Shown: positions 29,407 through 45,780 of the stretch, in pieces
Layout of the letters: each line of letters starts with the position of its first letter
Numbering within the stretch: the first letter of the stretch is position 1
Virus record (IMG/VR): IMGVR_UViG_3300033150_001590
Location: 1-45,780 of that record
Strand: one strand, 5' to 3'
DNA: 45,780 nucleotides
Source: a virus
The notes under the pieces: generated by a model
The model's input: only the letters and a program-made list of their open reading frames with translations
What the model was told of the DNA's origin: nothing
Database searches by the model: none
Made by a program: the position numbers and the translations under genes

Positions 29407-29766
29407 TTAATCGCCCTTGGTTATTCGATAACTATCGCTATCAAAATGTTGTGTTGAAAATTCGAACAATTCTGTGTCTTCTAGGGCCAACATCTGGTGT
29501 CGTAGGCCTCTATAAACATGGAAATTATCTCCTTTTTCTAAAATTATTGATTCAGCGCTTTCGATGTCATCCCGATCGGAATAAAAAACGCGGAGTTTTC
29601 CAGACTGGACGTAGAAAACCTCATCTTTCAATTTATGATAATGCCAGGAGCATTTTTTTCCTTTGACAAAATATAATAATTTGCCACAATATTCCTCGCA
29701 ATTAACAATCCACTTTTCAAATCCCCAGCCTTTGGGGACAAATTTAATTGGTAAAGAATTCGACAT
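29407..29766 (-). CDS. Cupin-fold sugar-binding or isomerase-like protein
   Basis: This 119-aa single-domain cupin carries the metal-binding set: H42-x-H44-x4-E49 (WHYHKLKDEVF) and a later His near residue 91 (GLRHQM). The opening PKGWGFEKWIV resembles the C-terminal cupin of mannose-6-phosphate isomerase / GDP-mannose pyrophosphorylase fusions. It may isomerise or epimerise a sugar, or sense one. The start is the ATG at 29766, with an AAGGGG site 7 bases upstream; a GTG directly before it is less likely. It overlaps the HAD phosphatase by 23 bases and is the last gene of the glycan cluster. Confidence 0.75.
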   Translation of the reverse strand: MSNSLPIKFVPKGWGFEKWIVNCEEYCGKLLYFVKGKKCSWHYHKLKDEVFYVQSGKLRVFYSDRDDIESAESIILEKGDNFHVYRGLRHQMLALEDTELFEFSTQHFDSDSYRITKGD

Positions 29767-30076
29767 CACTCATCCCCTTGTCGTCTATATAGAAATCGCC
29801 GGACGGCTTTCCTAAAAACAATTCATGATATTTAACTCCCCAGGTCTTTAATTGTTTCAGGGTTAAATTATAGAACAAAGAATAAGCGGCTAACTGATCA
29901 TTGTTGCTTCGGCCCATACCCCTGGCGGTAAGCATTATTATAGTATGGCCCTCGTCGTATAATTTATTAATTTTTGCTATTCTATCTTGGTAAGGTCTGG
30001 CATCTCTATAATTTTGACCCTTGTTTTCACACAAGCTTTCACAAATTGTTCCATCGATATCAAACACATATGTCAT
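29744..30076 (-). CDS. HAD-family sugar-phosphate phosphatase
   Basis: This short (110 aa) HAD phosphatase has all core motifs: motif I D6-x-D8-G-T (FDIDGT), motif II Thr in LTARG, and motifs III/IV in GKPSGDFYIDDKG, with Lys and an Asp-Asp pair. It lacks a large cap, like the small phosphatases annotated in capsule biosynthesis. Its coding sequence overlaps the adenylyltransferase by 4 bases and the cupin by 23. The kinase-nucleotidyltransferase-phosphatase order suggests it removes the C7 phosphate of a heptose bisphosphate, the step GmhB performs elsewhere. It belongs to a different HAD branch from GmhB as judged by the DIDGT motif (GmhB has DRDGT), so the substrate is inferred. Confidence 0.8.
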   Translation of the reverse strand: MTYVFDIDGTICESLCENKGQNYRDARPYQDRIAKINKLYDEGHTIIMLTARGMGRSNNDQLAAYSLFYNLTLKQLKTWGVKYHELFLGKPSGDFYIDDKGMSDVEFFTN

Positions 30077-30462
30077 AATTTCTCCAATATTTCTGTAGTT
30101 GAATAACTACTGATTCTTTTAAAAAATTCTATTTCATCCACGAAACGAGATCCTACCACGTTTTTACCTCTGTACTCAGAACCAACAACGATAATCGATG
30201 CGTTACTTAATAATATTTGGTTTTCAAGCTCGCAATCAATATCAAAACTTTTCACTTCATCAATATATTTTATAGATTCTAGCATGGCTATTCTATCTTC
30301 CAGCGTGTTCACTGGGCGACGGGGGCCCTTGGAAGCGCTGACTCTTTCATCACCGTCCACTCCCACGATTAACCGGTCCCCTAGAGACTTCGCGTGTTTA
30401 AACAACTCAATGTGTCCGCGATGTAAAATATCAAAACATCCATTTGTCCATACAATTTTCAT
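30073..30462 (-). CDS. Heptose-1-phosphate adenylyltransferase-like (HldE C-domain type)
   Basis: This 129-aa protein has a cytidylyltransferase/Rossmann fold with the nucleotide-binding TNGCFDILHRGHIELF (HxGH at residues 14-17). The segment VGVDGDERVSASKGPRRPVN, then the RIAMLESIKYID region, is characteristic of the RfaE/HldE C-terminal domain. That enzyme transfers AMP (or, in relatives, CMP/GMP) to sugar 1-phosphates. Here it is a separate polypeptide, with the kinase as the adjacent gene, overlapping by 4 bases at each end (ATGA). The domain assignment is firm; whether the sugar is a heptose and the nucleotide ATP is an inference from the kinase partner. Confidence 0.85.
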   Translation of the reverse strand: MKIVWTNGCFDILHRGHIELFKHAKSLGDRLIVGVDGDERVSASKGPRRPVNTLEDRIAMLESIKYIDEVKSFDIDCELENQILLSNASIIVVGSEYRGKNVVGSRFVDEIEFFKRISSYSTTEILEKL

Positions 30463-31196
30463 GCTATGGAGACTCCCTTCTTTTGAACAACTAGGGTGGC
30501 ACAGTAATTAGCGTGCCTGATGGACTCTTGTATACTGTTGGTCTCAGTATATTTAGCGACCAAGGCGGCAATAAAAGTATCTCCGGCACCTGAAGTGTCT
30601 TTTATTTCAACCTTCGGCACAGAATAGACAATATCTTGATATTTCGCGCCATTTGGGCCCAAAGTGATTATCATTCGAGATATGGTATCCTCGTCAATTC
30701 GATGTTTAGTTCTCTCAAATTCAAATTCATTAATCTTTATAAAAGTAATGTTCTTGCACCAATCTCCTAAGATTTTTTTTGTATCTAAAAAAGTAATTTG
30801 ATGATTTTTAGATATATATTCAATATCTGACTCGGTAAGAAACCCTTTATTATAATCAGAGATTACTACAATATCATATTTTGAAAAGCTAATTTCTTCT
30901 AACTTGCAGCGGCCATAAGATTCGTCCTTTTCATCAACCCTCAAAACTATACAGTTTGTTCTATAATCAACATATCTTGTTTTAGTTATTTGTTTCCAAT
31001 TGCTATTAGTTATAAGTTCGGCGCTGGATTTGGATAAAGATTTGATATTATTAAGTACATTCATCGCCATCCCCCCGTTTGTCTTATTAATTTTATTGCT
31101 ATCAAATACAGGGACAGGGGCTTCTGGGCATAGGCGGGTGCAGTCTCCGTATTGATAGACGTCTCTACAACTTTCTCCTATAACTAGTATTTTCAT
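30459..31196 (-). CDS. PfkB-family sugar kinase (HldE N-domain type)
   Basis: This 245-aa protein is a ribokinase-fold kinase. It shows ILVIGESCRDVYQYG at the start, the substrate Gly-Gly motif NGGMAMNVLNN and the catalytic DTSGAGDTFIAAL motif near the C-terminus, where the last Asp is the base. The opening CPEAPVPVF is typical of heptose 7-phosphate kinases (HldE/RfaE N-domain). It is shorter than the usual ~310-330 aa, so some peripheral loops are missing. An AAGGAG site lies 5 bases before the ATG. It overlaps the adenylyltransferase downstream and the 3-dehydratase upstream by 4 bases each. It probably phosphorylates C1 of a heptose 7-phosphate. Confidence 0.83.
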   Translation of the reverse strand: MKILVIGESCRDVYQYGDCTRLCPEAPVPVFDSNKINKTNGGMAMNVLNNIKSLSKSSAELITNSNWKQITKTRYVDYRTNCIVLRVDEKDESYGRCKLEEISFSKYDIVVISDYNKGFLTESDIEYISKNHQITFLDTKKILGDWCKNITFIKINEFEFERTKHRIDEDTISRMIITLGPNGAKYQDIVYSVPKVEIKDTSGAGDTFIAALVAKYTETNSIQESIRHANYCATLVVQKKGVSIA

Positions 31197-32359
31197 AGCT
31201 CTCCTTTGACTACTTTGCAGATGTGGTCAATCTCGCTCTCGGTTAATTCTGGATAATTTGGAATAAAAAACCCGCAAGAGTGGATTCTATCGCTTAGTTC
31301 ATCCACAAACTCGTCATATTTGTCTGTCCAAAAAGGATGTCGACCCAAATTTCCAGCGCTATAAATTCTTGTTTCAATTCCCTCGTCAATGAGTCTTGTA
31401 ACAATTTCTCTTCTATGCTCAGTGCTGTTTGCCAAAGCGCCAAAAGAAATAGATACGGGTACATTTTCTCCCCAGTTCTGGAATTCAACATACCCTTTTA
31501 ACTTTTTAGCGTATAGAAGGTGATTCCTGTTCCTCTTATCTGCCACCAAATTTGCTTTCTTAATTTGTCTAATTCCCAAAAAAGCCTGTAAATCTGTAGA
31601 TCTAAGATTATATCCTGGCATAAAAAATGTGAATGGAGAATGGAAGTCTTCAATGCCGTGTTTTTCCATCATGTCATCGTAGGTCTCGCTGTCTAAATCC
31701 TTAGCCCAGCCATGACTGCGTAACATTAAAAGCATATCATAAAGATTTTTATCATTAACATTAACCATCCCCCCTTCAATTGTGGACAGTTGGTGGCCAA
31801 AATAAAATGAGAATGAGGCCATGTCCCCAATAGTACCTACCATACTTCCATCAGAGTATGAGGATCCTAGAGCGGCGCATGCATCTTCCAATAACAAAAA
31901 TCCATATTTTTCTTTTAATGCCAAGAGGCGCCTCTTGTGGTGTGGAACCCCAAGAACTTGAACAAAAATAACCGCATCTGGGCGCTCGTTTTCGCATATT
32001 TTCTCAAGCTGATCTAAATTAATCCCATAAGTATCTTTATCGGCGCCGCACATTATTGGCTTTAGGCCGAGTTGCATCGCTGGAGAAATTGTAGTTACCC
32101 AGCCAACAGACGGGACAACAATCTTCTTATTGGGGATCAATCCGCATTGAACTGCTGTTGCGATCATCAAAAGATTAGCTGATGAGCCAGAGTTATTGAA
32201 GACAGCGTATTTGGTTCCTATATACCGGGCCCAGTCGTTTTCGACTTTCCAAGTCAAATCGCCTTTGGTTAATCGCGGATATCCTTTAAGCCACTCACAG
32301 AGGGCATCTATATCTTCACTGTTAATCGTTTCTTTTGCTAGCGGGTATTTAATTTTCAT
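31193..32359 (-). CDS. PLP-dependent nucleotide-sugar 3-dehydratase (ColD-like)
   Basis: This 388-aa protein has the DegT/DnrJ aminotransferase fold. It shows VFNNSGSSANLL (cofactor phosphate loop), VPSVGWVTTISP, EDACAALGSS (Asp of EDA holding the PLP ring) and the lysine-motif region SFYFGHQLSTIEGG. At the position where aminotransferases have the Schiff-base Lys, this protein has His189. A His there marks the 3-dehydratases ColD (His188) and E1/AscC/DdhC, which remove the C3 hydroxyl of a 4-keto-6-deoxy sugar instead of adding an amine. It should yield a 3-deoxy sugar. The fold is certain; the ColD-type activity rests on this residue. An AGGA ribosome site precedes the ATG. Confidence 0.9.
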   Translation of the reverse strand: MKIKYPLAKETINSEDIDALCEWLKGYPRLTKGDLTWKVENDWARYIGTKYAVFNNSGSSANLLMIATAVQCGLIPNKKIVVPSVGWVTTISPAMQLGLKPIMCGADKDTYGINLDQLEKICENERPDAVIFVQVLGVPHHKRRLLALKEKYGFLLLEDACAALGSSYSDGSMVGTIGDMASFSFYFGHQLSTIEGGMVNVNDKNLYDMLLMLRSHGWAKDLDSETYDDMMEKHGIEDFHSPFTFFMPGYNLRSTDLQAFLGIRQIKKANLVADKRNRNHLLYAKKLKGYVEFQNWGENVPVSISFGALANSTEHRREIVTRLIDEGIETRIYSAGNLGRHPFWTDKYDEFVDELSDRIHSCGFFIPNYPELTESEIDHICKVVKGEL

Positions 32360-32369
32360 TTTATTTCCT

Positions 32370-32921
32370 TTATTTAATTGCTTGAAGGTTTAAGCTCATA
32401 AGCTTGCCATTTATTTTATCCATGTGGGGGAGATAAGCCTGACTATAATCATCTACATAAAAATGTTCTGTCTTTCGCCAGTCATATTGCTTTACTTCGC
32501 CAAAACCAACCTCCTCTAGTGCCTCCTTTAAAGTATTGAAAGACCATCCGTGATAATGAAAATCAAAATCATATTTTTGACCCCCATAAAATAAAGTTTT
32601 AACGCTATCGAAGTCGTTTGTCTCAAGGTAATATTCACAAGCGGCTTTTATATCTGGCACCGATAGTCGTAAAATTCCGCCTGGTTTCAAAGTCTTGTGC
32701 CAATTCGTCAAAACTTCCCTCCAAGTGATTGGTTGGAACAAAAACGCTTGTGTTGGAAAATGTTCCAACACATGACATGAATAAATTAGATCTACATCTT
32801 GGAATTTCTCATGAATCTTCGCAATGTTATATACAACATCGGGGTCCATGTCGTTTCTGGCATCAATATTAATGAACCCGTGCAGTTTTCGGTCTCCGCA
32901 TCCTAAATTTAGTTTTGTCAT
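32370..32921 (-). CDS. SAM-dependent methyltransferase, class I
   Basis: This 183-aa protein has a Rossmann methyltransferase core. Motif I is LNLGCGDRKLHGFINID, an acidic residue ends strand 2, HVLEHFP is the post-II motif, and LKPGGILRLSVPD is motif III. The variant family is common in polysaccharide clusters as sugar or lipid methyltransferases. A GGAG ribosome site lies about 9 bases upstream of the ATG. It lies between the 3-dehydratase and the RmlC-like epimerase, so O- or C-methylation of the nucleotide sugar or of the finished glycan is the likely job. The acceptor cannot be told from sequence. Confidence 0.85.
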   Translation of the reverse strand: MTKLNLGCGDRKLHGFINIDARNDMDPDVVYNIAKIHEKFQDVDLIYSCHVLEHFPTQAFLFQPITWREVLTNWHKTLKPGGILRLSVPDIKAACEYYLETNDFDSVKTLFYGGQKYDFDFHYHGWSFNTLKEALEEVGFGEVKQYDWRKTEHFYVDDYSQAYLPHMDKINGKLMSLNLQAIK

Positions 32922-32937
32922 TAAAATATCTCCAATT

Positions 32938-33450
32938 TTAAATTAATTTAGCGTTCTTATCTCTATCAGATAAGTGCGGTTTATTCTCTATTAAATCCCA
33001 GTCTATTGCCAAACTTGGGCTATTCCAATTTACAGAAATTTGTTGATCTGCCGGTACATATCCAGAAGACCACTTATAGTAAAAATAAGTATTATTCTCT
33101 AAATTATAGTGCCCATTTAAAAAATATTTAGGTACAAAAACTGCAAAGTCGCTCTGCTCATCCATATCAAAATATGATTTTTGCAAAAATTGCTCATGAT
33201 TTTTATTATAATTAACTACAACGAGCTTAAATCTTCCCCTAATACAATAGATTAATTTATCATTCACCGTGTCGGTGTGTAGTCCTCTTAGAACATTTTT
33301 TTTAGATATTGTTAGTTTATCTAATAAATATTTTTTCCCACTGGGATGATAATCAAGTAAATTTATTATTTGGCCCCTATCATCAAAATATTTTTCTAAA
33401 TAAACCTTACAAACCCCTTCTAATTTAGTTTTTTCAATATTAAAATTCAT
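32938..33450 (-). CDS. RmlC-like nucleotide-sugar 3,5-epimerase
   Basis: This 170-aa protein is close to RmlC (~180 aa). The cupin core shows NVLRGLHTDTVNDKLIYCIR, which corresponds to the RGLHxQ segment holding the catalytic His, and a later FVPKYFLNGHY. The C-terminus YKWSSGYVPADQQISVNW matches the family's closing Y..P..E..I.W pattern. The Gln after RGLH is changed to Asp and the paired Tyr is not obvious, so it could epimerise at one carbon only or have a different substrate. The start is the ATG at 33450, with AGAGG 6 bases upstream. A TTG at 33465 would overlap the previous stop and is less likely. Confidence 0.8.
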   Translation of the reverse strand: MNFNIEKTKLEGVCKVYLEKYFDDRGQIINLLDYHPSGKKYLLDKLTISKKNVLRGLHTDTVNDKLIYCIRGRFKLVVVNYNKNHEQFLQKSYFDMDEQSDFAVFVPKYFLNGHYNLENNTYFYYKWSSGYVPADQQISVNWNSPSLAIDWDLIENKPHLSDRDKNAKLI

Positions 33451-33458
33451 TTTTACCT

Positions 33459-34175
33459 CTAACAATATTTTGGATCCTTTGACGTAAACAATTCACGGCG
33501 TAGATCTAAAAAAATTTTTAAACAGGCATCAAATCCTTTTTTATCTTCCTCTGTTGGTTTCCAAAAGGAATTAAAAAGAGAATATCTAATTTTTGTAACC
33601 TCAATCGTCTCCTCTCCCTTAAACCACAAATAATAAGATAAATAATTATCTGCAAAATGCGGAGATCTAATATTGAAATTTGGATGAAAGATCTTACCCC
33701 CCAATAACTCTAAAGTCTTTTTATTTAAAATAGGAAACCTGCACATCAATATTCTTGGTAAAGATTTTGTCTCTGGTTTTGGTCCGTATGGGTGGTTTAA
33801 CGGAATTGGCTCAAGATAGCAGCGGCCGTCGATGGCTGCTGTGAATATCTTATATTTTCTATTAATAAATAAATCACTTGCTAGAATTTCGGGCGCCCGG
33901 ATGATTTCTGGGGTCACCAGATTATCATCAGTAAGGACCACTAAGGTGTCTCCTTTGGATTTCGTGGCACCATAATTGAAAGCTTGCGGGCCATTAATAC
34001 ACATATTATCTTTTATAAATCTGATTCGTTTATCGTTAATTTCATCTGGAGAAATGACTAGAATTTCTCCGTTATCAAGCGCTCCGGCGGACTCCAGACA
34101 ATCTATGACTCTTTTAGGTGATTCTTCATAATTTCTATTTGTGGCAATCAAATAAGATATGTCTATATTTTTCAT
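33459..34175 (-). CDS. Glycosyltransferase, GT-A fold (family 2-like)
   Basis: This 238-aa protein opens DISYLIATNRNYEESPKRVI, followed by a Rossmann-type strand series. The metal/nucleotide motif VVLTDDNLV sits near residue 82, where family-2 transferases carry DxD. The C-terminal half has LGGKIF and a WFKGEE segment similar in layout to the two longer paralogues at 36576 and 39171. It presumably adds one sugar to the growing glycan at the cytoplasmic face of the membrane or in the cytosol. There is no transmembrane helix. A GAGG ribosome site lies about 7 bases from the ATG. Confidence 0.75.
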   Translation of the reverse strand: MKNIDISYLIATNRNYEESPKRVIDCLESAGALDNGEILVISPDEINDKRIRFIKDNMCINGPQAFNYGATKSKGDTLVVLTDDNLVTPEIIRAPEILASDLFINRKYKIFTAAIDGRCYLEPIPLNHPYGPKPETKSLPRILMCRFPILNKKTLELLGGKIFHPNFNIRSPHFADNYLSYYLWFKGEETIEVTKIRYSLFNSFWKPTEEDKKGFDACLKIFLDLRRELFTSKDPKYC

Positions 34176-34201
34176 TTTTGTTTCCTCATTTCAAATTAAG
34201 C

Positions 34202-34453
34202 TTAATCTACACAACAATTTTCCACTATTTTTTCCACACTATCTAGATCTTCAAGGGGCAGTTTCATATTTGAATTTGTAGATAACGGCCTTAAACGGAT
34301 ACCGGATCTTTCTATATTTATCAATAAATCAAACATTTCAATACTCTCCAACAAGCCAGAAGAATAGAGAGCGTCTTTAGATTCTACCTTTCCCTTATTG
34401 TTCTGTTCTAAAAAAATATTAACAATAGCTAACACCCTTTCCATTATAGGCAT
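34202..34453 (-). CDS. Acyl carrier protein-like protein
   Basis: This 83-aa protein is the usual ACP size. LYSSGLLESIEMFDLLINIE corresponds to the ACP helix-2 region, in which the consensus Asp-Ser-Leu is Glu-Ser-Ile. Ser37 would carry 4'-phosphopantetheine. The neighbour upstream is an acyl-AMP ligase that overlaps it by 10 bases; together they make an activate-and-load pair. The start ATG follows an AAGGA site; a second ATG three codons later is possible. The Asp-to-Glu change and the absence of a typical DSLD block make the assignment slightly less than certain, but size, position and context agree. Confidence 0.75.
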   Translation of the reverse strand: MPIMERVLAIVNIFLEQNNKGKVESKDALYSSGLLESIEMFDLLINIERSGIRLRPLSTNSNMKLPLEDLDSVEKIVENCCVD

Positions 34454-36579
34454 AATTTTTTCCTTGTCAACGAACGACTAATTTTTCCACTAGATGTTTT
34501 AATTAGAAACCCCTCCCCTAGAAGATGAATCGTGGCGGATAAATTAAAAATATCTTTTATTTTTTTAATTATCATATTTATTGTTTCTTTTTTTCCCTCA
34601 TTCGTGCCCGTGTACTCTGCGCAGATGTGAACTTCTGAGGTGCCTTTTATTCGATTCGGTACCCCAAAGCAAGCCACCCTTCCGGGTTTAATATTATTAA
34701 TTTTAGCGGTCTCGCGCTCTATAGGAGATGGATATATATTAATTCCAAAAGAAACGAAAGAATCTTTTTGGCGATCCACAATATATAGATGACCGCCTTG
34801 CATAAATCCGATATCGCCAGTATTATAATAATCATAATAACTTTCTTCATCTCGGTTTGTTTTTGGGCAGCTAGAAGATTTGACATACACCATTCCAATT
34901 TTTTCATTGGTAACATCTTTGTTTTCACTCACAATTAAAACCGAAACGCCAGGAATAATTTTGCCACAACTTGTATATTTTTTCCCATGATAAATTTCTT
35001 CTCTTATTCCCTCCGATTGGGAAACGGCAAACACATTTTCCGCCAAGGCATAGCACACTGATAACGCGTTTCTAGATAATCCAAACTGTTTAAATTTATT
35101 ATAAAAATTATTTAAATCTTCATAATAAGCTGGTTCAGAACAGCTTATAAATTTTTTAACGGTGGATAAATCATAGATTTTATCTCCAACATTGATCCTG
35201 CTGGTCATATAATTAAATGCAAAATTGGGCATCCAAATGTGGGTAGCTGCGTGGGATTCTATAAGAGCCATGAAAATTTCCGGATCTCTGAGCCATACAA
35301 AGGGGTCAATAATGTGAAACTTAGCGTCGGACAGCAAAGGCAACAGGAATCCAGCCACAAGACCCATATCGTGATAAAGTGGAAGCCAAGATACTACAGA
35401 GCTATTCTTGTTTAAATCAATAGTTTTCTTATATTCCTCGCAATTCTCAAGTATTTCTCGGTGAGTAACATATAAAATTTTTGGAGTACCAGTAGTACCC
35501 GAAGACATCTGGATGAATGCTACACTATCAGAATCCGCAGTCGGAGGTGACGATATATCGGGGGAAACATCCAGGTTACTACGCGTATTAAAATATTTTT
35601 TATAAATTGATGTATGCTGTTCCTCCGATAAACACAAAGAAGGCGCCAGTTGTTGTTTTACATATCTCATTTTTTTATCAAATTCATCAAAATGAATTTT
35701 ATTAGAAGGATATTGTAAAATTATAGGCTTTCGACCATATAAAATGCTGCCAATGAATTCGGAAAATAGATCCTCACCGCTCGGCTTGGTTAAGACTACC
35801 ACATCTCCCTCGCTAGTAAGATTACTAATTCTAGCACCAACGCGAGCCGCCTTATCAAAAAAATCTCTATTATTAGAATTATGTTTCAAAATATTGGGGA
35901 TTGTTTTACCTAGTCTCCCCATATATCGATTCAAATAATTTGCTATGAATTCAACCCCCTTGTTATTATAATGAATACCATCACCAGTTGGATACCCATG
36001 CTCTCGAACCCAGTCCACATCCATTGACATATTTAAAAAATCAACACCAACTGATGAAAAAGATTTATTCATCTTTAAAACATCGTAATGATGTTTGGTA
36101 CCTTCCTGATATTCTTTATCTAAATCATTTTTGTTTTTCAAAGTATGCATTCCCACAAATAAAACGCGCTTTGACTTTTTTTTAAATGTTTCAAAAACTT
36201 CTTTTTGGCCTTCGGGGTCTGAGTACAAATAAACTTTTTGATTTGTATTGGGCTTGTCCCGTTCGTCAATTAAACATTCTTCTTTAAAATGTTTTGCGGT
36301 TATCCCTCTGAATACATTTTCTGGCCAATAACAGACGCCTTCGTGCCATCCGGCTTGTATAATTATCAGATCATACCACTTGTCTGGTACACTTTTTATA
36401 TGTTCTTCTAATATAAAAATAGAAAATAGCCAATGGTTGTACTCTGCGCGAACGGTGTGTATCTCGTGGACGTTGTTGGTTATTGAAACAAATTTTTGTA
36501 CCCAATCGAGACCCAGGCACTGACCGCTGTGTTGTTTTGGCCATATGGCGCGCGAATCGGCGCCGATCAGAATTTTCAT
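34444..36579 (-). CDS. SGNH hydrolase fused to fatty-acyl-AMP ligase
   Basis: This 711-aa protein has two domains in order. Residues 1-~225 form an SGNH/GDSL hydrolase: block I is GADSR (Ser9), an IIQAGWHE stretch occupies the block-III place, and block V is DGIHYNNKG (Asp198-His201). Residues ~235-711 form an adenylate-forming enzyme: the phosphate loop MSSGTTGTPK near 355, YYNTGDIGF near 583, DRQKDSFVSFG, and a C-terminal SSGKISRSL whose Lys completes catalysis. The set resembles fatty-acyl-AMP ligases more than CoA ligases. The partner is the ACP next door. The fusion suggests one protein that both installs and trims or transfers acyl groups. It overlaps the glycosyltransferase upstream by 4 bases. 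Confidence 0.85.
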   Translation of the reverse strand: MKILIGADSRAIWPKQHSGQCLGLDWVQKFVSITNNVHEIHTVRAEYNHWLFSIFILEEHIKSVPDKWYDLIIIQAGWHEGVCYWPENVFRGITAKHFKEECLIDERDKPNTNQKVYLYSDPEGQKEVFETFKKKSKRVLFVGMHTLKNKNDLDKEYQEGTKHHYDVLKMNKSFSSVGVDFLNMSMDVDWVREHGYPTGDGIHYNNKGVEFIANYLNRYMGRLGKTIPNILKHNSNNRDFFDKAARVGARISNLTSEGDVVVLTKPSGEDLFSEFIGSILYGRKPIILQYPSNKIHFDEFDKKMRYVKQQLAPSLCLSEEQHTSIYKKYFNTRSNLDVSPDISSPPTADSDSVAFIQMSSGTTGTPKILYVTHREILENCEEYKKTIDLNKNSSVVSWLPLYHDMGLVAGFLLPLLSDAKFHIIDPFVWLRDPEIFMALIESHAATHIWMPNFAFNYMTSRINVGDKIYDLSTVKKFISCSEPAYYEDLNNFYNKFKQFGLSRNALSVCYALAENVFAVSQSEGIREEIYHGKKYTSCGKIIPGVSVLIVSENKDVTNEKIGMVYVKSSSCPKTNRDEESYYDYYNTGDIGFMQGGHLYIVDRQKDSFVSFGINIYPSPIERETAKINNIKPGRVACFGVPNRIKGTSEVHICAEYTGTNEGKKETINMIIKKIKDIFNLSATIHLLGEGFLIKTSSGKISRSLTRKKLCL

Positions 36580-39174: not shown

Positions 39175-40001
39175 TTGTATCCAAGCTCCTTATAGCTCTG
39201 CGGGAGTTTTCCATCTTTAAATTTAAATCTTCTTTTCCAAATTGGAGAAGATTGCTGCCAGTTATTGATATCTAAACGGATTCGGGTTTTTGCGCCTGAC
39301 GCTTGCATATATATTTCATCAAATTTGGGCTTATCCGAAAATGTCTGAGCATCATAAATTGGCCCATGATCCTTGGTCTTATTTACATAGTGATTACAAG
39401 TTGTCGCGTCTGTTTCCGAGTCGAATAGGTGCCCTCCATCAGCCTGTACTCTAAACATAAGATCGTGTAAAGGGTGGTTAATATATTCAAATTGGCAATC
39501 CCATCCGCCAAGCTCCTTAAAATAATCCGTCACCATGAAATGGTGAAGAGAAATTTTATATTCCCTGGGGATACCAAGAAGTTTTAACTCATGATGAAAA
39601 TGTGCTGTCCAAAATCCCATCGGCAGCGTCTGGCCAGAATATAATGCCCCTTCTCGGTAGCGCATATTAATTACGTCCTTTTTTGAACAATTTGCGCGAT
39701 GGAAGTTTACTGCGTTATCAATAGCATCTGGTAGGAAAATGGCATCATCCACGCAATGATACATGTACTCGCCCTCGCATTGCAAAGCTCCAATTTGGGC
39801 TGCTCGGGTAGGGGCGCCATAATCTTTTATCAATTTTACATTACTAAAATGAACCATTTCGGGGGGTAGATCGAAAGGGCTAACCAAGACCAGTTCCCAT
39901 GAATAATTTTTACAAGCATTAAATAAGCTTCCATACATCATTAACCACTGGTGGCTTCTGATTGCCGGCATCAAAATTGAAACATCGTATTTAGATGTCA
40001 T
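39171..40001 (-). CDS. Glycosyltransferase, GT-A fold, paralogue of 36576 gene
   Basis: This 276-aa protein opens KYDVSILMPAIRSHQWLMMY. It has LIKDYGAPTRAAQI, then CVDDAIFLPD with the DD pair. LGGWDCQFE and the closing WQQSSPIWKRRFK follow, all aligning with the 267-aa protein. Compared with the paralogue, the acceptor region between these anchors differs, so it probably uses another acceptor. It overlaps the dehydrogenase-like gene by 4 bases and the GT-B gene by 11. It likely adds sugars to the same glycan. Confidence 0.8.
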   Translation of the reverse strand: MTSKYDVSILMPAIRSHQWLMMYGSLFNACKNYSWELVLVSPFDLPPEMVHFSNVKLIKDYGAPTRAAQIGALQCEGEYMYHCVDDAIFLPDAIDNAVNFHRANCSKKDVINMRYREGALYSGQTLPMGFWTAHFHHELKLLGIPREYKISLHHFMVTDYFKELGGWDCQFEYINHPLHDLMFRVQADGGHLFDSETDATTCNHYVNKTKDHGPIYDAQTFSDKPKFDEIYMQASGAKTRIRLDINNWQQSSPIWKRRFKFKDGKLPQSYKELGYK

Positions 40002-40953
40002 ATCCCACCTCTTTCATAATTGTTTTCCAAAAAACGTTTGCGTTGTATTTTTTCTTATAAATTTCATATCCCCGATCTATGATATAATTCCGTTCTTTTT
40101 CGTTCTCAAGATAATAATTTATTTTTTTCACTAAATCTTCTTCGTCAAGAAACTCAACATAATGAACATTTGGCTTAAGATAGTTTTCAACGGCGCTATT
40201 TTTTCTCTCTAACAAGAGTGATTTGCTGGCTAAAACTTCCCATACTCGACCTTTACACTGGTCGTAGCCAGAGGGCCCTTCGGGAAAATTAAGACTAATT
40301 TTGCTACTTCTCATTAATTCAGCGTAATGTTTGGGACTTAGCGCTTCTTCTCTCTGTCCCCCTCCAATGTGGATTGGAATTGTATTAGTAACTAAATAGG
40401 TTAAATATTTTTGTCTCTCTGCATAGCGAGGGGACCCTAAAAAACTAACATCGATGTTTTGTTCCTCCGAAGGATAATACAACCCTTCGTCTTGGGGGGC
40501 CCATAGCCAAATTAAATTTTTAATATCATCCGATATATTTTTCTCTGATCCCCAGCAAACGTGTAAGTCTGCGAATCCTTGATTGTTTAATTTTTTAATC
40601 TCAGGAATTCCCCAACTGTCGAAAACGTCAGGCCACATAAATATTGTTTTGCACCCAGTATTCTTAATATGCTGGTAACTCTCTTCTGTTGGGTTGAGGT
40701 GTGATTTTCCTAATAGAGAAAAGATAACCAGATCAGGATTTATTTTGTCTATTAGCGTTGGCAAGAATCCATCAATATGCTTTTTCTTTATTAATGAATA
40801 TTCATCCATATGTACAATATCAAATTTAGTATTTGGAGATACTGTTTTCAAGGTTCGAAATAAATTATGATAATTATTTGTGAGGCCCTTTTTTGGATCA
40901 GCATCACACCATTTTTCTGTTACAAATAAAACTTTTGGATTATTTTTCTCCAT
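39991..40953 (-). CDS. Glycosyltransferase, GT-B fold (CgeB/family-1-like)
   Basis: This 320-aa protein starts at the ATG at 40953, chosen because GGAG lies 6 bases upstream; the frame is open upstream to 41043 but only through the gene before it. The N-terminal Rossmann half carries KVLFVTEKWCDA. The C-terminal half carries ISLNFPEGPSGYDQCKGRVW and EVLASKSLLLE, typical of the CgeB/Glyco_trans_1_2 branch, where a G-R-x-(W/F)-E-x-L-A segment binds the nucleotide donor. A further HYAELMRSS stretch belongs to the same fold. It overlaps the TPP beta gene by 14 bases. It is the only GT-B enzyme among the cluster's transferases. Confidence 0.8.
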   Translation of the reverse strand: MEKNNPKVLFVTEKWCDADPKKGLTNNYHNLFRTLKTVSPNTKFDIVHMDEYSLIKKKHIDGFLPTLIDKINPDLVIFSLLGKSHLNPTEESYQHIKNTGCKTIFMWPDVFDSWGIPEIKKLNNQGFADLHVCWGSEKNISDDIKNLIWLWAPQDEGLYYPSEEQNIDVSFLGSPRYAERQKYLTYLVTNTIPIHIGGGQREEALSPKHYAELMRSSKISLNFPEGPSGYDQCKGRVWEVLASKSLLLERKNSAVENYLKPNVHYVEFLDEEDLVKKINYYLENEKERNYIIDRGYEIYKKKYNANVFWKTIMKEVGYDI

Positions 40954-41479
40954 AATAATCTCCATATTCCACAACGATGGTGCTTTTACCATCGGTTCTG
41001 TTGTATGCCTTGCGATATGCTGGGAAAATATCTTTAGGGTCATCGCATCTTATCACCTCAATATTTCTTAACATGCCCCGAAACACTTGAGTAAAATCTC
41101 CAGTATGCTGGACTTGAGGATTAAGCGGTCTCTCTGACCCTATTCCTACGCGGATTATAACTTTAGGAATATATTCTCCATGAGAGAATTCCTTCATTCT
41201 ATCGAGGTGATTAACTAATTGGTTAATTGCTAATAGTAAAAAATTCCATCGTGGATAGATACTAATAGGGACTGATCCGTTAAGAGCTAGCCCATTAGTG
41301 ATCCCCATTTGCATTTCTTCGTCGACGGGCATCTCTAATAATTTTTCTCTCGGAACGTTTATGAGGGTGTTTGTCATTGATGTTCCTTTATACTCTACCG
41401 CTTGGCCTAAAAATATTGTATCTGGCTGATCTCCCAGCCATCTCATTGATTTTTCTAGTTCATCAAAATAGTTACCCAT
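40940..41479 (-). CDS. TPP enzyme, beta (pyrimidine-binding) subunit, minimal
   Basis: This 179-aa protein corresponds to the pyrimidine domain of transketolase / 2-oxoacid dehydrogenase E1-beta: FLGQAVEYKG, then LLEMPVDEEMQMGITNGLAL (Glu activating the TPP pyrimidine) and RVGIGSERPLNPQVQHTGD. The C-terminal transketolase domain (~130 aa) that full-length E1-beta has is absent. The start overlaps the alpha gene stop in TAATG, so the two subunits are probably made together. A small alpha/beta TPP pair in a sugar cluster suggests a decarboxylating or ketol-transfer step rather than a full dehydrogenase complex. Confidence 0.85.
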   Translation of the reverse strand: MGNYFDELEKSMRWLGDQPDTIFLGQAVEYKGTSMTNTLINVPREKLLEMPVDEEMQMGITNGLALNGSVPISIYPRWNFLLLAINQLVNHLDRMKEFSHGEYIPKVIIRVGIGSERPLNPQVQHTGDFTQVFRGMLRNIEVIRCDDPKDIFPAYRKAYNRTDGKSTIVVEYGDYYGEK

Positions 41480-42090
41480 TAGAATTGCACTCTCTTTCCC
41501 GCGCCGGCGTGCGGATATTTATCTAACTTATATTTATAATATGTAATATATTCATCATTAATACCTTCGTATGTTAACTTTTCTTGATTCCAAGTTTCTC
41601 TAGTGTTTGTGCAGACAGATTTGCCGTTGTCTTCAATAATAAAATGAATTGGGAGTTTATGGTTACGCGCATATTTAATGCATTCATGAGCAACACCAGT
41701 TTCGGAAGTCATTTCTCCTATAAAACAATATACTTTGTTAGTGCCCCCTTCACGTTTGATTCCCAATGCTATTCCTGTAGCGATGGGGAGGGTCCCGGTA
41801 ACGATACCAGAACAAAATACGCGCTGCTTTTTAAAACAAAGAGAAATTGATCGACCCTGAAGAATCGCGTCTTTTAATGTATCTTTAGGAACCCCTTTCA
41901 ATAAACACTGATAATGACTTCTCCACGAACAAAGAACCCAGTCTTCTGGACCTATATTATTATCTCTAAATACCTTTATAATTTGATTTTCATTTCCGTG
42001 GTAAAGGTGGACTGGGGCCCTGATCATTGCTGCGTCGAAACATGTGGCCATTTCTGTTTCAAATTTAATCAACTCTTCTTTTGTTAACAT
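41479..42090 (-). CDS. TPP enzyme, alpha (pyrophosphate-binding) subunit, minimal
   Basis: This 203-aa protein matches the diphosphate-binding domain of E1-alpha. The TPP signature starts GEM (residues 125-127) and ends EDN (153-155), the usual GDG...N(N) spacing with the first Asp replaced by Glu. WRSHYQCLLKGVP and SGIVTGTLPIATGIALGI are also typical. Natural E1-alpha chains are ~320-400 aa, so this is a stripped-down form. The beta partner follows at once. Downstream chemistry could be an acyloin or branched-chain sugar addition, as in other TPP sugar enzymes. The consensus promoter at 42112-42140 lies immediately upstream; the ribosome site (GAGAA) is weak. Confidence 0.85.
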   Translation of the reverse strand: MLTKEELIKFETEMATCFDAAMIRAPVHLYHGNENQIIKVFRDNNIGPEDWVLCSWRSHYQCLLKGVPKDTLKDAILQGRSISLCFKKQRVFCSGIVTGTLPIATGIALGIKREGGTNKVYCFIGEMTSETGVAHECIKYARNHKLPIHFIIEDNGKSVCTNTRETWNQEKLTYEGINDEYITYYKYKLDKYPHAGAGKRVQF

Positions 42091-42111
42091 CTAATTCTCG
42101 TTCTTATATAT

Positions 42112-42140: not shown

Positions 42141-42157
42141 GTATTATTTTGATTTTT

Positions 42158-43666
42158 TTAATCTCCCAGCAATTTTCGTTTAAGCTTAATTTTTGTCATA
42201 TTTTTAATATCTAGCCGGATTTTTAAACCATATTTTTCTTCAATCATTCTAAGATATTTCTCATCTTTATAATATGTGTTAAAAGCTTCATCTCGGAATC
42301 GCAAGACCTCAGATGACGAAATGTGTTTTGTAGAGAGCGGGGTAGTTTCATAAGAATGCTGAGAATATCCCACGAAGGTATCGGGGAGGGCCCAGCCTTC
42401 TCGGAGAGCATCTAAGTATAGTTTGGAGCCCGGGTAGGCCATGGTAGAATAAAAATTAGCAAATTCACAATTAAGCTCTTGAGCCATATTTAAAGTATCC
42501 TGCATAGTTTCAATATTATCTTCCGGTAATCCAAAAATATAATTTCCAATAACACTAATTCCCGCGTTTTGTATCTTGTCAACTAAGTCTTGTATTTTAA
42601 TATCAGAAAACACTCCCTTTATGACATCTTTTCTGACTTCTGTATTTCCAGATTCAATTCCCAAAGCCAACCAATTAATCCCTGCTTTTTTAAGAGTTTC
42701 TAAATATTCTTCTTTAACTGTGTCGATACGAGCATATGCCCATATATTAAAATTATACCCGCGATCTATAATCAGGTTACAAAGTTTAAGGAAGTGATCT
42801 TTATTTAATACGAACATTTCATCAGCTAATTTGATATTTTTAATTCCCATATTATGCAAAGTATCGAATTCAGTAATCATGAACTCCGGATCCCAGAATC
42901 TAAATTTATTTCTCCCGTAATCCCAATTTTCTAAATTATTATTTCCGAAAGGGGCGTTAATACAACAAAAACTACATCTGAATGGGCATCCCAGACTCGT
43001 GTACAGAGAGGCAAAAGAATATCTGTCTCCGCCATTTGTCATGGCATGCCAGTTAGAAGTGCGATATTTTTCCATTGGTAGGAGATCCCAAGCCATACCG
43101 GGCAGTTCTGTTGCGAGTTCTTCCTGTGGTATTAATGGTGCGGGCTTCGTATAACAAACAACGCCCTCATTCTGATACCATAGTCCGGGGACAGTTCTTA
43201 GTTCTTCCATATTATTCATATTTATGCTTAAAAGTCTTTTTATAGTATGGGGGCCCTCGCCCTGACAAACAAAATCGGCTTGCTCCTCTTCAATAGTGTT
43301 TCTCGCTACGGCTGATGGGTGTAACCCTAGTAAAATTATTTTGAATTTGGGATTATTTTTTTTTAAACTTTCTATTAATAATCTTGCACCGACCATGTTT
43401 TGTGTGGAAGCAGACGGTTGCTGTCCATAAACCACGATTGCAACCAATCTTGGATTGAATTCTAGAATAGAACGGGAAGATTCTTCCGCAGTTATTCTCT
43501 CTACTTCGCAATCCAAAATTTTAACAGAAAAGCCATTCTTAAGCGAGTTTTTTGCCAAAAGGGCTGCCCAGATAGGTGGCTCAAAGGCTGAGTACTCTTT
43601 ACTCAATTCTTGATATATCAGTGGCGCGCCGTTAGGATGTACAAATAATATGTCTAGTTGTTTCAT
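42158..43666 (-). CDS. B12-binding-type radical SAM enzyme
   Basis: This 502-aa protein has an N-terminal ~160 residues that look like a cobalamin-binding Rossmann domain (DILFVHPNGAPLIY, then VAIVVYGQQPS and KIILLGLHPSA). From ~215 a radical SAM barrel carries SLGCPFRCSFCC, with C227, C231 and C234 holding the 4Fe-4S cluster; the later GIESGNTEVRKDV supports SAM binding. Such enzymes methylate unactivated carbons or rearrange carbon skeletons, often in natural-product and lipid pathways. The base-off His motif is not seen, as in several class B members. The gene lies just upstream of the 42,112-42,140 promoter. Substrate unknown. Confidence 0.85.
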   Translation of the reverse strand: MKQLDILFVHPNGAPLIYQELSKEYSAFEPPIWAALLAKNSLKNGFSVKILDCEVERITAEESSRSILEFNPRLVAIVVYGQQPSASTQNMVGARLLIESLKKNNPKFKIILLGLHPSAVARNTIEEEQADFVCQGEGPHTIKRLLSINMNNMEELRTVPGLWYQNEGVVCYTKPAPLIPQEELATELPGMAWDLLPMEKYRTSNWHAMTNGGDRYSFASLYTSLGCPFRCSFCCINAPFGNNNLENWDYGRNKFRFWDPEFMITEFDTLHNMGIKNIKLADEMFVLNKDHFLKLCNLIIDRGYNFNIWAYARIDTVKEEYLETLKKAGINWLALGIESGNTEVRKDVIKGVFSDIKIQDLVDKIQNAGISVIGNYIFGLPEDNIETMQDTLNMAQELNCEFANFYSTMAYPGSKLYLDALREGWALPDTFVGYSQHSYETTPLSTKHISSSEVLRFRDEAFNTYYKDEKYLRMIEEKYGLKIRLDIKNMTKIKLKRKLLGD

Positions 43667-43675
43667 TTTTTACTC

Positions 43676-44608
43676 TTAATAGTTAGCATACCAAGGCGAT
43701 TCTATGATAGAATAAGCCGTGATCAATTGACGAATTCCGTCATCTAAATTATATTTACATTTATAGCCTTTTTTATATATTTTATCGCTACTAACAATAT
43801 AATCGCGGGTATCTGGATCACTATTAATTTCCGCCCTTATGATTTCGAGTGGCAAGTGGTCTTTAATTTTTTCAGCTAATTGTAATTTGTTCATATTCAG
43901 TTTATCATTTCCAAGGTTGTATGTTTGGTTTTTACACTCGCTCCAGTTATTAAGTATAAACATAAATCCTCGACATACATCATGTAGGTGTACATAATTT
44001 CTCATGAAATCACACTCGTATAATACTAAAACTTTATCTCTCAAGGTTCTAAGTACAAAATTATTGACCAGTAAATCAGTTCTCATTCTTGATCCGGGGC
44101 CAAACACCGTTGCCAGTCTGAATGTAACATGATTATTTGCCCTTTGATAATCTTTTTCAGCAGCGACCTTGGTGCGCCCGTAAAGGGAAATAGGGTTGAG
44201 TGGGGAATCTTCTGTACACACAGATCCATCGACGCTGACTCCATACCCGGAATTAGTACAAGGATATATAACTTTTTGATTTGGCCGTTTTGTTTCTGCG
44301 ATCCAAGTATTTACATCGTGGTTAATTTCTTGTGCTGATCTAGGGTCCTCATCGCAGAGGGGAAATCCGACGAGGGCAGCTAGTGGTATAATAATATCCG
44401 CGTCTTTCATTAATTTTGACATTAAATTCTTATTTCGGACGTCGCCCTTAATAAAATTAAAATTTGGATTATTTGTGTATCTTAATAGAGACGTCGGGTC
44501 ATACATTAGATTATCAATTACTTCTACTAAATATCCATCTTCTAGTAAATAATTTATTAATTCACTCCCAATATACCCCGCTCCACCAGTTATTAATACT
44601 GTACTCAT
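43676..44608 (-). CDS. Extended SDR nucleotide-sugar epimerase/dehydratase
   Basis: This 310-aa protein starts at the ATG at 44608, with a strong GGGAGG 6 bases upstream; it overlaps the preceding stop in ATGA. TVLITGGAGYIGSELINYLL is the NAD loop, CTNSGYGVSVDG contains the Ser-Gly-Tyr-Gly site, and YGRTKVAAEKD is the YxxxK catalytic pair. RNYVHLHDVCRGF is typical of UDP-glucose 4-epimerase/GDP-sugar dehydratase relatives. It probably makes or interconverts one nucleotide sugar for this cluster. It lies upstream of the radical SAM gene with a 9-base gap. Confidence 0.85.
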   Translation of the reverse strand: MSTVLITGGAGYIGSELINYLLEDGYLVEVIDNLMYDPTSLLRYTNNPNFNFIKGDVRNKNLMSKLMKDADIIIPLAALVGFPLCDEDPRSAQEINHDVNTWIAETKRPNQKVIYPCTNSGYGVSVDGSVCTEDSPLNPISLYGRTKVAAEKDYQRANNHVTFRLATVFGPGSRMRTDLLVNNFVLRTLRDKVLVLYECDFMRNYVHLHDVCRGFMFILNNWSECKNQTYNLGNDKLNMNKLQLAEKIKDHLPLEIIRAEINSDPDTRDYIVSSDKIYKKGYKCKYNLDDGIRQLITAYSIIESPWYANY

Positions 44609-44904
44609 TTTATCCTCCCAATTAACATATCTTTTAACATAACCCAATCACACATTTTTGCCCAAACTGGGTTTGAAAAAGCGGCGGGAATATTCTTTTC
44701 AAAAAAGAAATGGCCGGCCCAAGCAAATGGGTAAACTATGAAAGGAGCCAGTATTAAAAGATATAAATATCCGCTATAAAGGGTCATTGTTATGTAAACT
44801 ACCGTAGCTAACTGCCCAAAAGCGTGTAGCCGGCGGCACCATTTATTTTGATGTAGGGTTAAATAGTATTTATAATATTCCCCGAATGTCATTTTTTTAT
44901 TCAT
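44605..44904 (-). CDS. Mpo1/DUF962-like membrane protein
   Basis: This 99-aa protein starts at the ATG at 44904, which overlaps the previous stop by 8 bases; an ATG four codons later is also possible. EYYKYYLTLHQNKWCRRLHA is followed by two hydrophobic stretches (residues ~33-45 and 47-62). Then come WAGHFFFEKNIPAAFSNPVW and a LKDMLIGRIK tail, the characteristic DUF962/YGL010w pattern. His18, His27 and His65 are the likely iron ligands. Yeast Mpo1 is an Fe(II)-dependent dioxygenase that shortens 2-hydroxy fatty acids by one carbon; bacterial members are small and uncharacterised. In this cluster, it may modify an acyl chain that is later activated by the FAAL. That link is a hypothesis. Confidence 0.8.
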   Translation of the reverse strand: MNKKMTFGEYYKYYLTLHQNKWCRRLHAFGQLATVVYITMTLYSGYLYLLILAPFIVYPFAWAGHFFFEKNIPAAFSNPVWAKMCDWVMLKDMLIGRIK

Positions 44905-45310
44905 CCCAGCTAATTTCCCAGTCTTTAAAGTCTGCGGCGAGGCAATCAATCTTATAATCTTTTCTTCCGCCAGATAATTCTTGTATTTTATTTTTTGCAG
45001 TATTTCTGATGCCATTTAGCCCGTGTGTAAGTTCGAGATTATTTCCATCTTTAATCCCTTTTCTATAGTTTGTCTCATTATGCCAAATATGCAAATTCAT
45101 TTGAGATAAAACAACTATAGCCCTTAAGGATTTGGCATCCATTATAATTTCTTTATCCGCGAGCAGAAGATCAATATCATGTAGAATATTTTCAATCTCT
45201 CTAGAATATTCCTCTTTGTGCTCGACTATAAAGACTTCTTTTAATTGAGCTATTGATAATCTGTCTATCAGTTCAGAAAGAGTTGGTAAGTATTTTCTTT
45301 GGTTTTTCAT
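44897..45310 (-). CDS. Conserved helical protein of glycan clusters, unknown function
   Basis: This 137-aa protein contains LPTLSELIDRLSIAQLKEVF near the start and a later LSQMNLHIWHNETNYRKGIK. Uncharacterised proteins with a similar PT...L.DRL...NLK.WH layout occur in marine phage and bacterial gene clusters for surface sugars, and I know no function for them. It is helical, has no membrane segment and no visible catalytic motif. It overlaps the truncated glycosyltransferase upstream by 4 bases and the Mpo1-like gene by 8. A scaffold or regulatory role is conceivable but not supported by sequence. Confidence 0.65.
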   Translation of the reverse strand: MKNQRKYLPTLSELIDRLSIAQLKEVFIVEHKEEYSREIENILHDIDLLLADKEIIMDAKSLRAIVVLSQMNLHIWHNETNYRKGIKDGNNLELTHGLNGIRNTAKNKIQELSGGRKDYKIDCLAADFKDWEISWDE

Positions 45311-45780
45311 CTATTGGCCCCTATAAATTGTGAAAAATATTTTTTATATATATTATAATTGTTTTCTCCAAGCACATGTTTGTATTTAAAAAATACAAGC
45401 GCCTCTTCGGCGCCTCTTGGAACAGAATATTTATCAGAGGTGGAGAGACCTTCTGAATTGTGGTAGTATAGTCCAAGCGGAATATCTATTTTTTTGAATT
45501 TACGGCCAGAATCAACCATGCGCAAAAACATTTCCCAGTCCCCAGCATAAGATAGTTTATCATCGAAATATCCAACCTCTTCGTGTACAGATTTTTTCCA
45601 CATCGGCATTGGGCCTGGGAGACATTTTATCATATTTTCACTAGAGAATTCCCGCAATGAGTGTTCATATTTTTTACCATTAGAAGAATTAGATTCAAAA
45701 ATTTCATTTGGAATATTGGTTTGATAACAATCTGAGTAAACAAGATCAATACCTTCTGAGAAGTGGAGATTTTTTGCCAT
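45307..45780 (-). CDS. Glycosyltransferase, GT-A fold, N-terminus off window
   Basis: An open frame of 157 codons runs to the window edge. The Met at 45780 need not be the start; a GT-A transferase usually has ~90-150 more residues before it, with the nucleotide-binding strands. What is visible is LVYSDCYQTNIP (the DxD-like YSDC block), GPMPMWKKSVHEEVGYFDD and YAGDWEMFLRMVDSGRKFKK (the acceptor/base region of family 2), then IPLGLYYHNSEG. It is a good match to the C-terminal half of a family-2 glycosyltransferase. It overlaps the 137-aa gene by 4 bases. The glycan cluster therefore continues beyond this end of the window. Confidence 0.8.
   Translation of the reverse strand: MAKNLHFSEGIDLVYSDCYQTNIPNEIFESNSSNGKKYEHSLREFSSENMIKCLPGPMPMWKKSVHEEVGYFDDKLSYAGDWEMFLRMVDSGRKFKKIDIPLGLYYHNSEGLSTSDKYSVPRGAEEALVFFKYKHVLGENNYNIYKKYFSQFIGANR

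Follow-up and report, generated by a model that had tools for sequence, protein, structure and literature searches.

A 22-gene island that occupies positions 29407 to 45780 of the virus record IMGVR_UViG_3300033150_001590, up to the contig end, appears equipped to make an unusual sugar chain of modified heptose. We tentatively propose, at a little under even confidence, that this island of a marine T4-like myovirus turns a nucleoside diphosphate (NDP)-heptose into a 3-deoxy-heptose glycan with an acceptor on the host surface. The window analysed here is that single IMG/VR record at its full length of 45,780 bases; the island lies on the minus strand throughout, and its genes are given below by their window coordinates on that strand. 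Neighbouring genes overlap at 16 of the 21 junctions (by 1–26 bases, exactly 4 bases at nine), and the widest gap is 67 bases, as counted with refined starts for the genes GT1, Epi2, and Mpo1 described below. An initial annotation had described about 22 contiguous minus-strand genes with pervasive overlaps, and both points were borne out.

Further minus-strand genes downstream of the island encode an FmdB-like protein, a gp55-like late sigma factor (27858..28589; PHROG 234, 1.3e-7), and gp25- and gp6-like baseplate proteins, the gp6-like wedge gene being at 18364..20157 (PHROG 219, 2.9e-22). The gp55-, gp25-, and gp6-like genes beside the island identify the carrier as a T4-like myovirus. There is no G+C step at the island boundary, and a tRNA scan of the window found none. 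In relatives, the island extends past the point at which the window's contig ends, with two GT4 genes and a full GT2 gene, and in relative G003 a PhoH gene precedes the first GT4 gene by 1.9 kb.

Enzymes of the proposed heptose route

The heptose reading is strengthened by the closest matches of three predicted sugar-modifying enzymes. Epi2 (43676..44608), a putative Cj1427-like NDP-heptose C4-dehydrogenase, is 45% identical to a protein of a Solidesulfovibrio locus and, among solved structures, matches 6vo6 best (4.6e-92, 311.8 bits; the next structure scores 97 bits), which we take to be Campylobacter Cj1427, a GDP-heptose C4-dehydrogenase. DegT (31193..32359; PF01041, 2.2e-63) matches ColD (2gms, 2.6e-49) and has a His aligned at the catalytic position in place of Lys, with the same stretch in all nine copies from the window and eight mapped relatives; we therefore assign it as a ColD-type, pyridoxal phosphate-dependent C3-dehydratase and not an aminotransferase. 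The window's DegT is 78–84% identical to the relatives' copies. The RmlC-fold C3/C5-epimerase (32938..33465), which belongs to a variable cassette, is nearest to Campylobacter GDP-4-keto-heptose epimerases (7ani, 8.6e-23; 8dcl, 1.2e-22; 8dak, 3.3e-21), and the accessible text of the DdahB/MlghB structure paper lists 7ANI together with 7AN4 (PMC7949155). According to the accessible part of another study (PMC10680097), Cj1427 oxidises GDP-heptose at C4 and its bound NADH is re-oxidised by alpha-ketoglutarate to give L-2-hydroxyglutarate; in vitro, Cj1427 and the HS:5 C3-dehydratase yield GDP-3-deoxy-4-keto-heptose, downstream of which four 3-deoxy-heptoses were made and presented as novel products. 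The island combines relatives of Cj1427 and of the HS:5-type C3-dehydratase.

Three further genes may modify the sugar. Epi1 (37376..38389; PF01370, 6e-38), a short-chain dehydrogenase/reductase (SDR) of the epimerase/reductase type with SSSMVF and YGFQK in 9/9 copies, is a candidate C4-reductase. The short UDP/GDP-sugar dehydrogenase UGD (38386..39174; PF03721 and PF00984) has GFGGMCLPKD in every one of the nine copies. It measures 262 aa (261 aa in all eight relatives) and lacks the C-terminal domain, as if it had been shortened by long residence in phages. An S-adenosylmethionine (SAM)-dependent methyltransferase (32370..32921) matches PF13489 (5.3e-6) and PF08241 (2.1e-4), both at cut-off.

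The genes for heptose activation lie at the downstream end of the island. A short PfkB kinase (30459..31196; PF00294, 6.9e-22; TIGR02198, 1e-33, below cut-off) carries the PEAPVP and GAGD stretches and resembles HldE domain I, a heptose-7-phosphate kinase, while the nucleotidyltransferase NTtr (30073..30462; PF01467, 1.8e-18; TIGR02199, 2.4e-32, below cut-off) has HRGH in 9/9 copies and resembles HldE domain II, a heptose-1-phosphate nucleotidyltransferase; the two are short kin of the HldE domains that score under the curated cut-offs. Kinase relatives were found in 31 phage records (E limit 1e-15). The small HAD phosphatase (29744..30076; PHROG 1238, 5.7e-30; NCBIfam EcbF/BcbF, 3e-9, below cut-off) keeps DxDGT, TAR, and K..DD in all nine copies, and its cyanophage counterparts are labelled 'phosphoheptose isomerase'. 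The cupin (29407..29769; PHROG 7851, 1.6e-61) is 68% identical to that of cyanophage S-SM2, corresponds to T4-GC 307 (cyanophage label 'cysteine dioxygenase'), and shows a weak L-ribose isomerase match (0.001); it is perhaps a sugar-phosphate isomerase.

A two-subunit thiamine pyrophosphate (TPP) enzyme is encoded by TPPa (41479..42090; E1-alpha-like, PF00676, 7.9e-13; TIGR03182, 6.2e-23, below cut-off), in which the TPP/Mg motif G[DE]M...DNG is kept in 9/9 copies, and TPPb (40940..41479; PF02779, 4.2e-8). The 179-aa TPPb consists of the pyrimidine-binding domain only, without a C-terminal domain; beta subunits of two-subunit TPP sugar-branching enzymes usually have one. In antibiotic pathways, such enzymes put a C2 branch on keto sugars (PMC12247030), and the paulomycin branch is subsequently fatty-acylated (PMC4753412), a suggestive parallel to the presence of the TPP pair and a fatty acyl-AMP ligase (FAAL) in this island. 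Next to TPPa lies a B12-binding radical SAM protein (rSAM, 42158..43666; PF04055 and PF02310) with full-length relatives of 43–48% identity in bacterial plasmid loci. In the cyanophages P-TIM68 (L017:13986-15194) and S-SM2 (L018:13983-15191), the TPP alpha and beta parts, split in the window, are fused in 402-aa open reading frames (ORFs).

The Mpo1-like protein (44605..44904; PF06127, 7.2e-29) had been placed by the initial annotation in a lipid arm, together with a fused SGNH-FAAL and an acyl carrier protein (ACP). Its slot, between HypX and Epi2, holds an Mpo1-like gene in the window and in five of the eight mapped relatives (G004, G005, G008, G009, and G011), and an FAD oxidoreductase in G001, G003, and G006; for the G003 and G006 oxidoreductases the best NCBIfam match is L-2-hydroxyglutarate oxidase, under cut-off (261 and 272 versus 299). 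Across the loci surveyed on 17 contigs with Epi2 (14 from an rSAM scan and three from an Epi2 scan), Mpo1 is present on seven, an LhgO-like gene on eight, neither on two, and both on none. Because the slot alternates with an LhgO-like gene and never holds both, the Mpo1-like protein more probably belongs to the sugar chemistry than to the lipid arm, and we propose that it acts on 2-hydroxyglutarate, not lipids. Scanning separately with Mpo1 yielded 64 viral loci, near-duplicates and incomplete flanks included, with a heptose-set gene within about 5 kb in 53, an Epi2 relative at threshold in 31, and an LhgO-like oxidase in none. When the LhgO-like gene was used as query, two loci were found, one being the query's own and the other having an Epi2-like gene (35%) nearby. 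An lhgO gene is also annotated in the Solidesulfovibrio locus.

The proposed order of reactions is as follows. Heptose-7-phosphate, supplied by the host or with the help of the cupin, would be phosphorylated by PfkB, dephosphorylated by the HAD phosphatase, and activated by NTtr to an NDP-heptose. Epi2 would oxidise C4, its bound NADH being re-oxidised by alpha-ketoglutarate with release of L-2-hydroxyglutarate, and the ColD-type DegT would strip the C3 hydroxyl to leave a 3-deoxy-4-keto-heptose. The TPP enzyme may attach a two-carbon branch to the keto sugar, and RmlC and Epi1 may epimerise and reduce it. The Mpo1-like protein, or the LhgO-like oxidase in other phages, would remove 2-hydroxyglutarate. 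Five or more glycosyltransferases would join the sugars, and in this phage FAAL would activate a fatty acid for acylation. Finally, the glycan would be added to the surface polysaccharide of the infected cell via host lipid carriers, altering the receptor.

The family calls of the initial annotation mostly held in profile searches. Pfam supports the cupin, the cytidylyltransferase-like protein, PfkB, DegT, RmlC, the AMP-binding protein, two SDR epimerase/dehydratases, UGD (N-terminal and central domains only), the GT1-like protein, both TPP subunits, the B12-radical SAM protein, and the Mpo1-like protein; the methyltransferase stands at the cut-offs, and ACP and SGNH were not confirmed. The five or more glycosyltransferases fared unevenly. 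The GT1-like enzyme is firm (39991..40953; PF13524, 1e-18; its ORF opens at 41043 and the start was refined). GT2b (36576..37379; PF00535, 0.005), which is present in 8/8 mapped relatives, and GT2c of the variable cassette (33459..34175; PF00535, 0.1) match weakly. GT2a (39171..40001) has no Pfam match, and GT2b aligns at 33% to the GT2a stretch of relative L132. The C-terminal part of a further GT2 glycosyltransferase, cut by the contig end (45307..45780), is called via relatives, where the full gene encodes ~550 aa (in G003, PF00535, 2.2e-11).

As for the lipid arm, FAAL stood firmly, while the SGNH call is weak, ACP was not confirmed, and the Mpo1-like protein tracks the sugar genes. The FAAL protein (34444..36579; PF00501, 4.4e-35) belongs to the variable cassette; its ligase part spans residues ~238–709, 3kxw (3e-36) and other FAALs head its list of structural matches in the Protein Data Bank (PDB), and NCBIfam FAAL models matched, all below cut-off. 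The possible SGNH domain (residues 1–225) is suggested by a Pfam GDSL match at E 0.052, below cut-off, and otherwise by motifs seen by eye; the AF2 model of the fusion was unusable (pLDDT 33.6). The candidate ACP of the same cassette (34202..34453), 83 aa with a serine in an LES stretch, has no Pfam match and no PDB match up to E 5.

Conservation, selection, and exchange of the island

With the radical SAM protein as query over viral contigs, we found 15 contigs. Fourteen share a common core order as far as each reaches, with insertions, and L014 is a distant variant. The order is GT2, HypX, Mpo1 or the oxidase, Epi2, rSAM, TPPa, TPPb, GT1, GT2a, UGD, Epi1, and GT2b. Eleven of the 15 contigs also have a gp55 gene and nine a gp6 gene, in each case following the island by contig position and sharing its strand. 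All four contigs without gp55 break off within the island, and the pair that have gp55 but lack gp6 break off shortly past gp55, which excludes an assembly chimera. The earlier description of a phage-encoded, single co-linear block with deoxy/heptose chemistry is supported.

Purifying selection acts on the 17 shared genes examined: comparison within two close pairs of relatives gave dN/dS of 0.00–0.11, with 32 of the 34 comparisons resolvable and two saturated. Gene decay in relatives was rejected on this basis; the initial annotation had named inactivating mutations in relatives as one result that would overturn it. Motifs are kept in 9/9 copies of DegT, Epi1, Epi2, TPPa, UGD, PfkB, NTtr, HAD, and rSAM. 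G001 and G004 lack the methyltransferase motif; their best match to this enzyme, at 52%, lies at another location. For the genes private to the window (FAAL, the ACP candidate, GT2c, and RmlC), the codon preference of the annotated reading frame, but not of the shifted frames, matches that of the phage.

Around this core, the decorating genes look swapped at fixed positions, like bacterial surface-antigen variation. The interval between GT2b and DegT holds FAAL, ACP, GT2c, RmlC, and the methyltransferase in the window; in six relatives it holds a glycosyltransferase, a fucose-synthase-like and dehydratase-like pair, and a methyltransferase, and in G001 and G004 a methyltransferase, a glycosyltransferase, a fucose-synthase-like gene, and RmlC. 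Elsewhere in the islands, a further methyltransferase and sulfotransferase-like genes (weak Pfam) are present in some and absent from others.

The core is also more alike between the window and its eight relatives than the backbone is. Mean identities are 56–81% for core proteins, most being 66–81% (NTtr 56%, HAD 61%, Mpo1 63%), and 35–57% for backbone proteins. After normalisation for rate by the divergence among relatives, median divergence was 1.08 for the core (18 genes) and 1.72 for the backbone (eight genes; Mann–Whitney p 0.0027, linked genes not being independent), with gH (1.07), gp25 (1.09), and FmdB (1.28) core-like and NTtr (1.50) and Mpo1 (1.59) backbone-like as exceptions. In quick trees, monophyly of the relatives alone was rejected by PfkB (p 0.019), not rejected by TPPa (0.07), cupin (0.10), rSAM (0.28), gp55 (0.43), and HypX (0.60), and already present in the free tree for gp6, gI, Epi2, and TPPb. 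The normalised comparison fits a scenario in which phage lineages have exchanged the island; the tree tests are mixed. Several contigs from the Mpo1 scan have sugar genes directly before FmdB-gJ-gp55, which suggests a hotspot there. The distant relative G013, whose island has the matching genomic position, encodes NeuB and cytidylyltransferase domains in one protein (L052:6694-8355). A non-exhaustive genome scan with two short patterns for a bacterial source of the island gave one weak match, and PHROG searches with nine large proteins of the relatives did not settle their lineage.

Glycan acceptor, sugar identity, and competing explanations

Strong hydrophobic segments number at most one per gene in the window's island and in those of the eight relatives; a laxer threshold raised the maximum to four, in an FAD oxidase. 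The count is crude, since the Mpo1-like protein itself scores only one, yet it should reveal a flippase or polymerase; the earlier statement that neither was seen is supported. Export therefore uses host machinery, or the acceptor is cytosolic. Of these two, we consider the host surface the likelier destination: for similar clusters, published views, as far as the accessible texts go, favour a change of the host surface against rival phages (PMC7029224, PMC2984593, PMC7824862).

The main rival, which we consider unlikely, is that the island acts in the cytosol to glycosylate, and here also acylate, a virion protein such as one of the giant proteins of the baseplate region, thereby shielding that protein or tuning adsorption. 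The lack of a polytopic membrane protein in all nine islands examined fits this, as does the position of the island, which directly adjoins gp55 and the baseplate module on the same strand. However, the bacterial loci that hold relatives of rSAM and Epi2 appear to serve polysaccharide or lipid-carrier glycosylation, the island shows no recognisable protein glycosyltransferase family, and the heptose genes shared with cyanophages belong there to clusters described as lipopolysaccharide (LPS) genes.

A second alternative concerns the sugar itself, which could be a known deoxy sugar (colitose, fucose, or a 6-deoxy or 3,6-dideoxy sugar) made by DegT from a 4-keto-6-deoxy intermediate, with a 4,6-dehydratase from the host or from beyond the contig end. 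ColD is the best solved match of DegT, and the dehydratase/fucose-synthase-like pair occurs in six of the eight mapped relatives; that of G003 was profiled as GDP-mannose dehydratase and fucose synthase, and the other five are 50–80% and 71–76% identical to it. We nevertheless judge a known sugar to be quite unlikely: the window, G001, and G004 retain DegT with no such dehydratase in the island, and Epi2 is far nearer to 6vo6 than to other solved SDR enzymes, by the bit scores given above.

The idea that such genes are filler DNA for headful packaging, raised for cyanophages in the accessible text of PMC3037559, agrees with the differing gene content among relatives and is very unlikely in view of the purifying selection, conserved order, and conserved motifs. 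A chimeric assembly that joined a bacterial polysaccharide locus to a phage contig, the other result named beforehand as fatal, was rejected, as the same arrangement recurs on 11 separate contigs and nothing was found in its favour, which makes it the least credible explanation of all.

Several observations weigh against a 3-deoxy-heptose glycan at the host surface. Activation is of the HldE type instead of the HddA/HddC of the GDP-type route, and no GmhA/SIS-type Pfam match was found at E 0.01 among the 22 genes of the island, which is incomplete at the contig end. The GDP-mannose-4,6-dehydratase- and fucose-synthase-like genes lie just before the methyltransferase and DegT in 6/8 mapped relatives, and DegT may accordingly have a 4-keto-6-deoxy hexose or heptose as its substrate. 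With near-identical contigs taken into account, about three LhgO-like and four Mpo1 lineages among the surveyed Epi2 contigs are independent, and 33 of the 64 loci from the Mpo1 scan have no Epi2 relative in reach. In the Solidesulfovibrio locus, DegT (24%) and TPPa (24%, partial) are distant and TPPb gave no match. A flippase, initiating transferase, ligase, and acceptor were not found in the island, and a late-promoter scan found TATAAATA at chance (10 found, 7.7 expected). Lastly, the dN/dS set covered 17 genes shared between relatives, other than Mpo1, and comparisons involving the window itself were mostly saturated: in two window pairs, the only unsaturated island genes were NTtr (0.13 and 0.23) and HAD (0.09, one pair).

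Related clusters and neighbouring genes

LPS-type clusters in marine T4-like phages are already known from P-SSM2, S-SM2, and pelagimyophages. The initial annotation had called the combination unusual for a phage, which was too strong, since large clusters of this type have been published (PMC3037559, PMC2984593, PMC7029224, as far as their accessible texts show). The cyanophage clusters (S-SM2, P-TIM68, P-SSM2, and S-SSM7) likewise sit in T4-like carriers as multi-gene sugar blocks. Those of S-SM2 share the kinase (51%), nucleotidyltransferase (57%), HAD (60%), and cupin (68%), with homologues of T4-GC 304, 305, 306, and 307 in the window, and both S-SM2 and P-TIM68 share the TPP pair, albeit fused. 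By contrast, in the phages collection rSAM had three matches of at most about 24% identity and Epi2 four of at most 33% (E limit 1e-20), and FAAL had nine with coverage of at most 69% and about 22–26% identity. The cyanophage backbone differs too (gp6 at most 33.5% among the records listed), whereas the island in the window adjoins gp55 and baseplate genes. FAAL relatives were found in viral contigs neither for the whole protein nor for its N-terminal domain, none of the 787 matching plasmid records covers 80% of it, and a literature search for a phage FAAL found no paper. Pelagimyophages, by the accessible description (PMC7029224), carry glycosyltransferases, rfaE, and UDP-glucose dehydrogenase, many in a hypervariable region, and serotype conversion was suggested there. 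The accessible report on S-SCSM1 (PMC9602691) describes a GDP-mannose dehydratase and a fucose synthase.

Among bacteria, the Campylobacter jejuni GDP-heptose pathways share the families of the C4-dehydrogenase, the C3-dehydratase (His for Lys), and the C3/C5-epimerase. They differ in their GDP-type activation (GmhA, HddA, and HddC), HldE-type in the window; TPP, rSAM, FAAL, and Mpo1 are not mentioned in the accessible part of the pathway account, and there the C4-dehydrogenase and C3-dehydratase form an in vitro combination (PMC10680097). Related loci also lie on Solidesulfovibrio magneticus pDMC1 and Azospirillum plasmids, with rSAM at 43–48% (four plasmids) and Epi2 at 45–48% (L056 and L057). 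A TPP pair is annotated in both L056 and L057, and pDMC1 combines the rSAM and Epi2 relatives with an annotated kinase, TPP pair, fucose synthase, DegT, nucleotidyltransferase, lhgO, and SIS genes. These loci differ in their larger annotated TPP subunits, whose alignment to those of the window is weak or absent, other kinase and nucleotidyltransferase genes, and bacterial replicons. On the Azospirillum plasmids L054, L055, and L057, the rSAM relative has a kinase nearby, with NUDIX and sugar genes in two and the TPP pair in the third.

Taken as a whole, it is doubtful, though conceivable, that a marine phage lineage encodes a natural 3-deoxy-heptose pathway, possibly C2-branched and fatty-acylated, with its own by-product step (LhgO-like, or Mpo1-like on 2-hydroxyglutarate), on an island exchanged between divergent backbones and with decorating genes swapped like serotype cassettes. 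If so, 3-deoxy-heptoses, described so far as in vitro products in the accessible literature, would gain a natural source, and action of the Mpo1-like protein on 2-hydroxyglutarate would be a new PF06127 function outside lipid metabolism. The accessible text of PMC3037559 asks whether marine phage LPS-type clusters function at all; with nine mapped islands (the window and eight relatives), a conserved core, purifying selection, and named enzymes, cluster function becomes testable enzyme by enzyme.

Among the remaining genes, HypX (44897..45310) is a conserved five-helix protein (alignment of 20 sequences; AF2 pLDDT 83.7) that recurs in many islands. A fold search found no match at E < 0.001, and among predicted viral structures it comes nearest to parts of giant-virus proteins (E 0.03 and 0.12). 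Outside the island, an M23-peptidase-like ORF (26048–27562) matches Pfam just under cut-off (5.7e-6), and the same-slot ORFs of relatives do not match. In the baseplate region, a giant ORF of 3063 aa (7731–16922) has counterparts of 3232–3974 aa in G004, G009, and G011. A second giant ORF of 1501 aa (20574–25079) has no PHROG match and one sub-cut-off Pfam match, and in relatives its slot holds an ORF of 2250–2343 aa.

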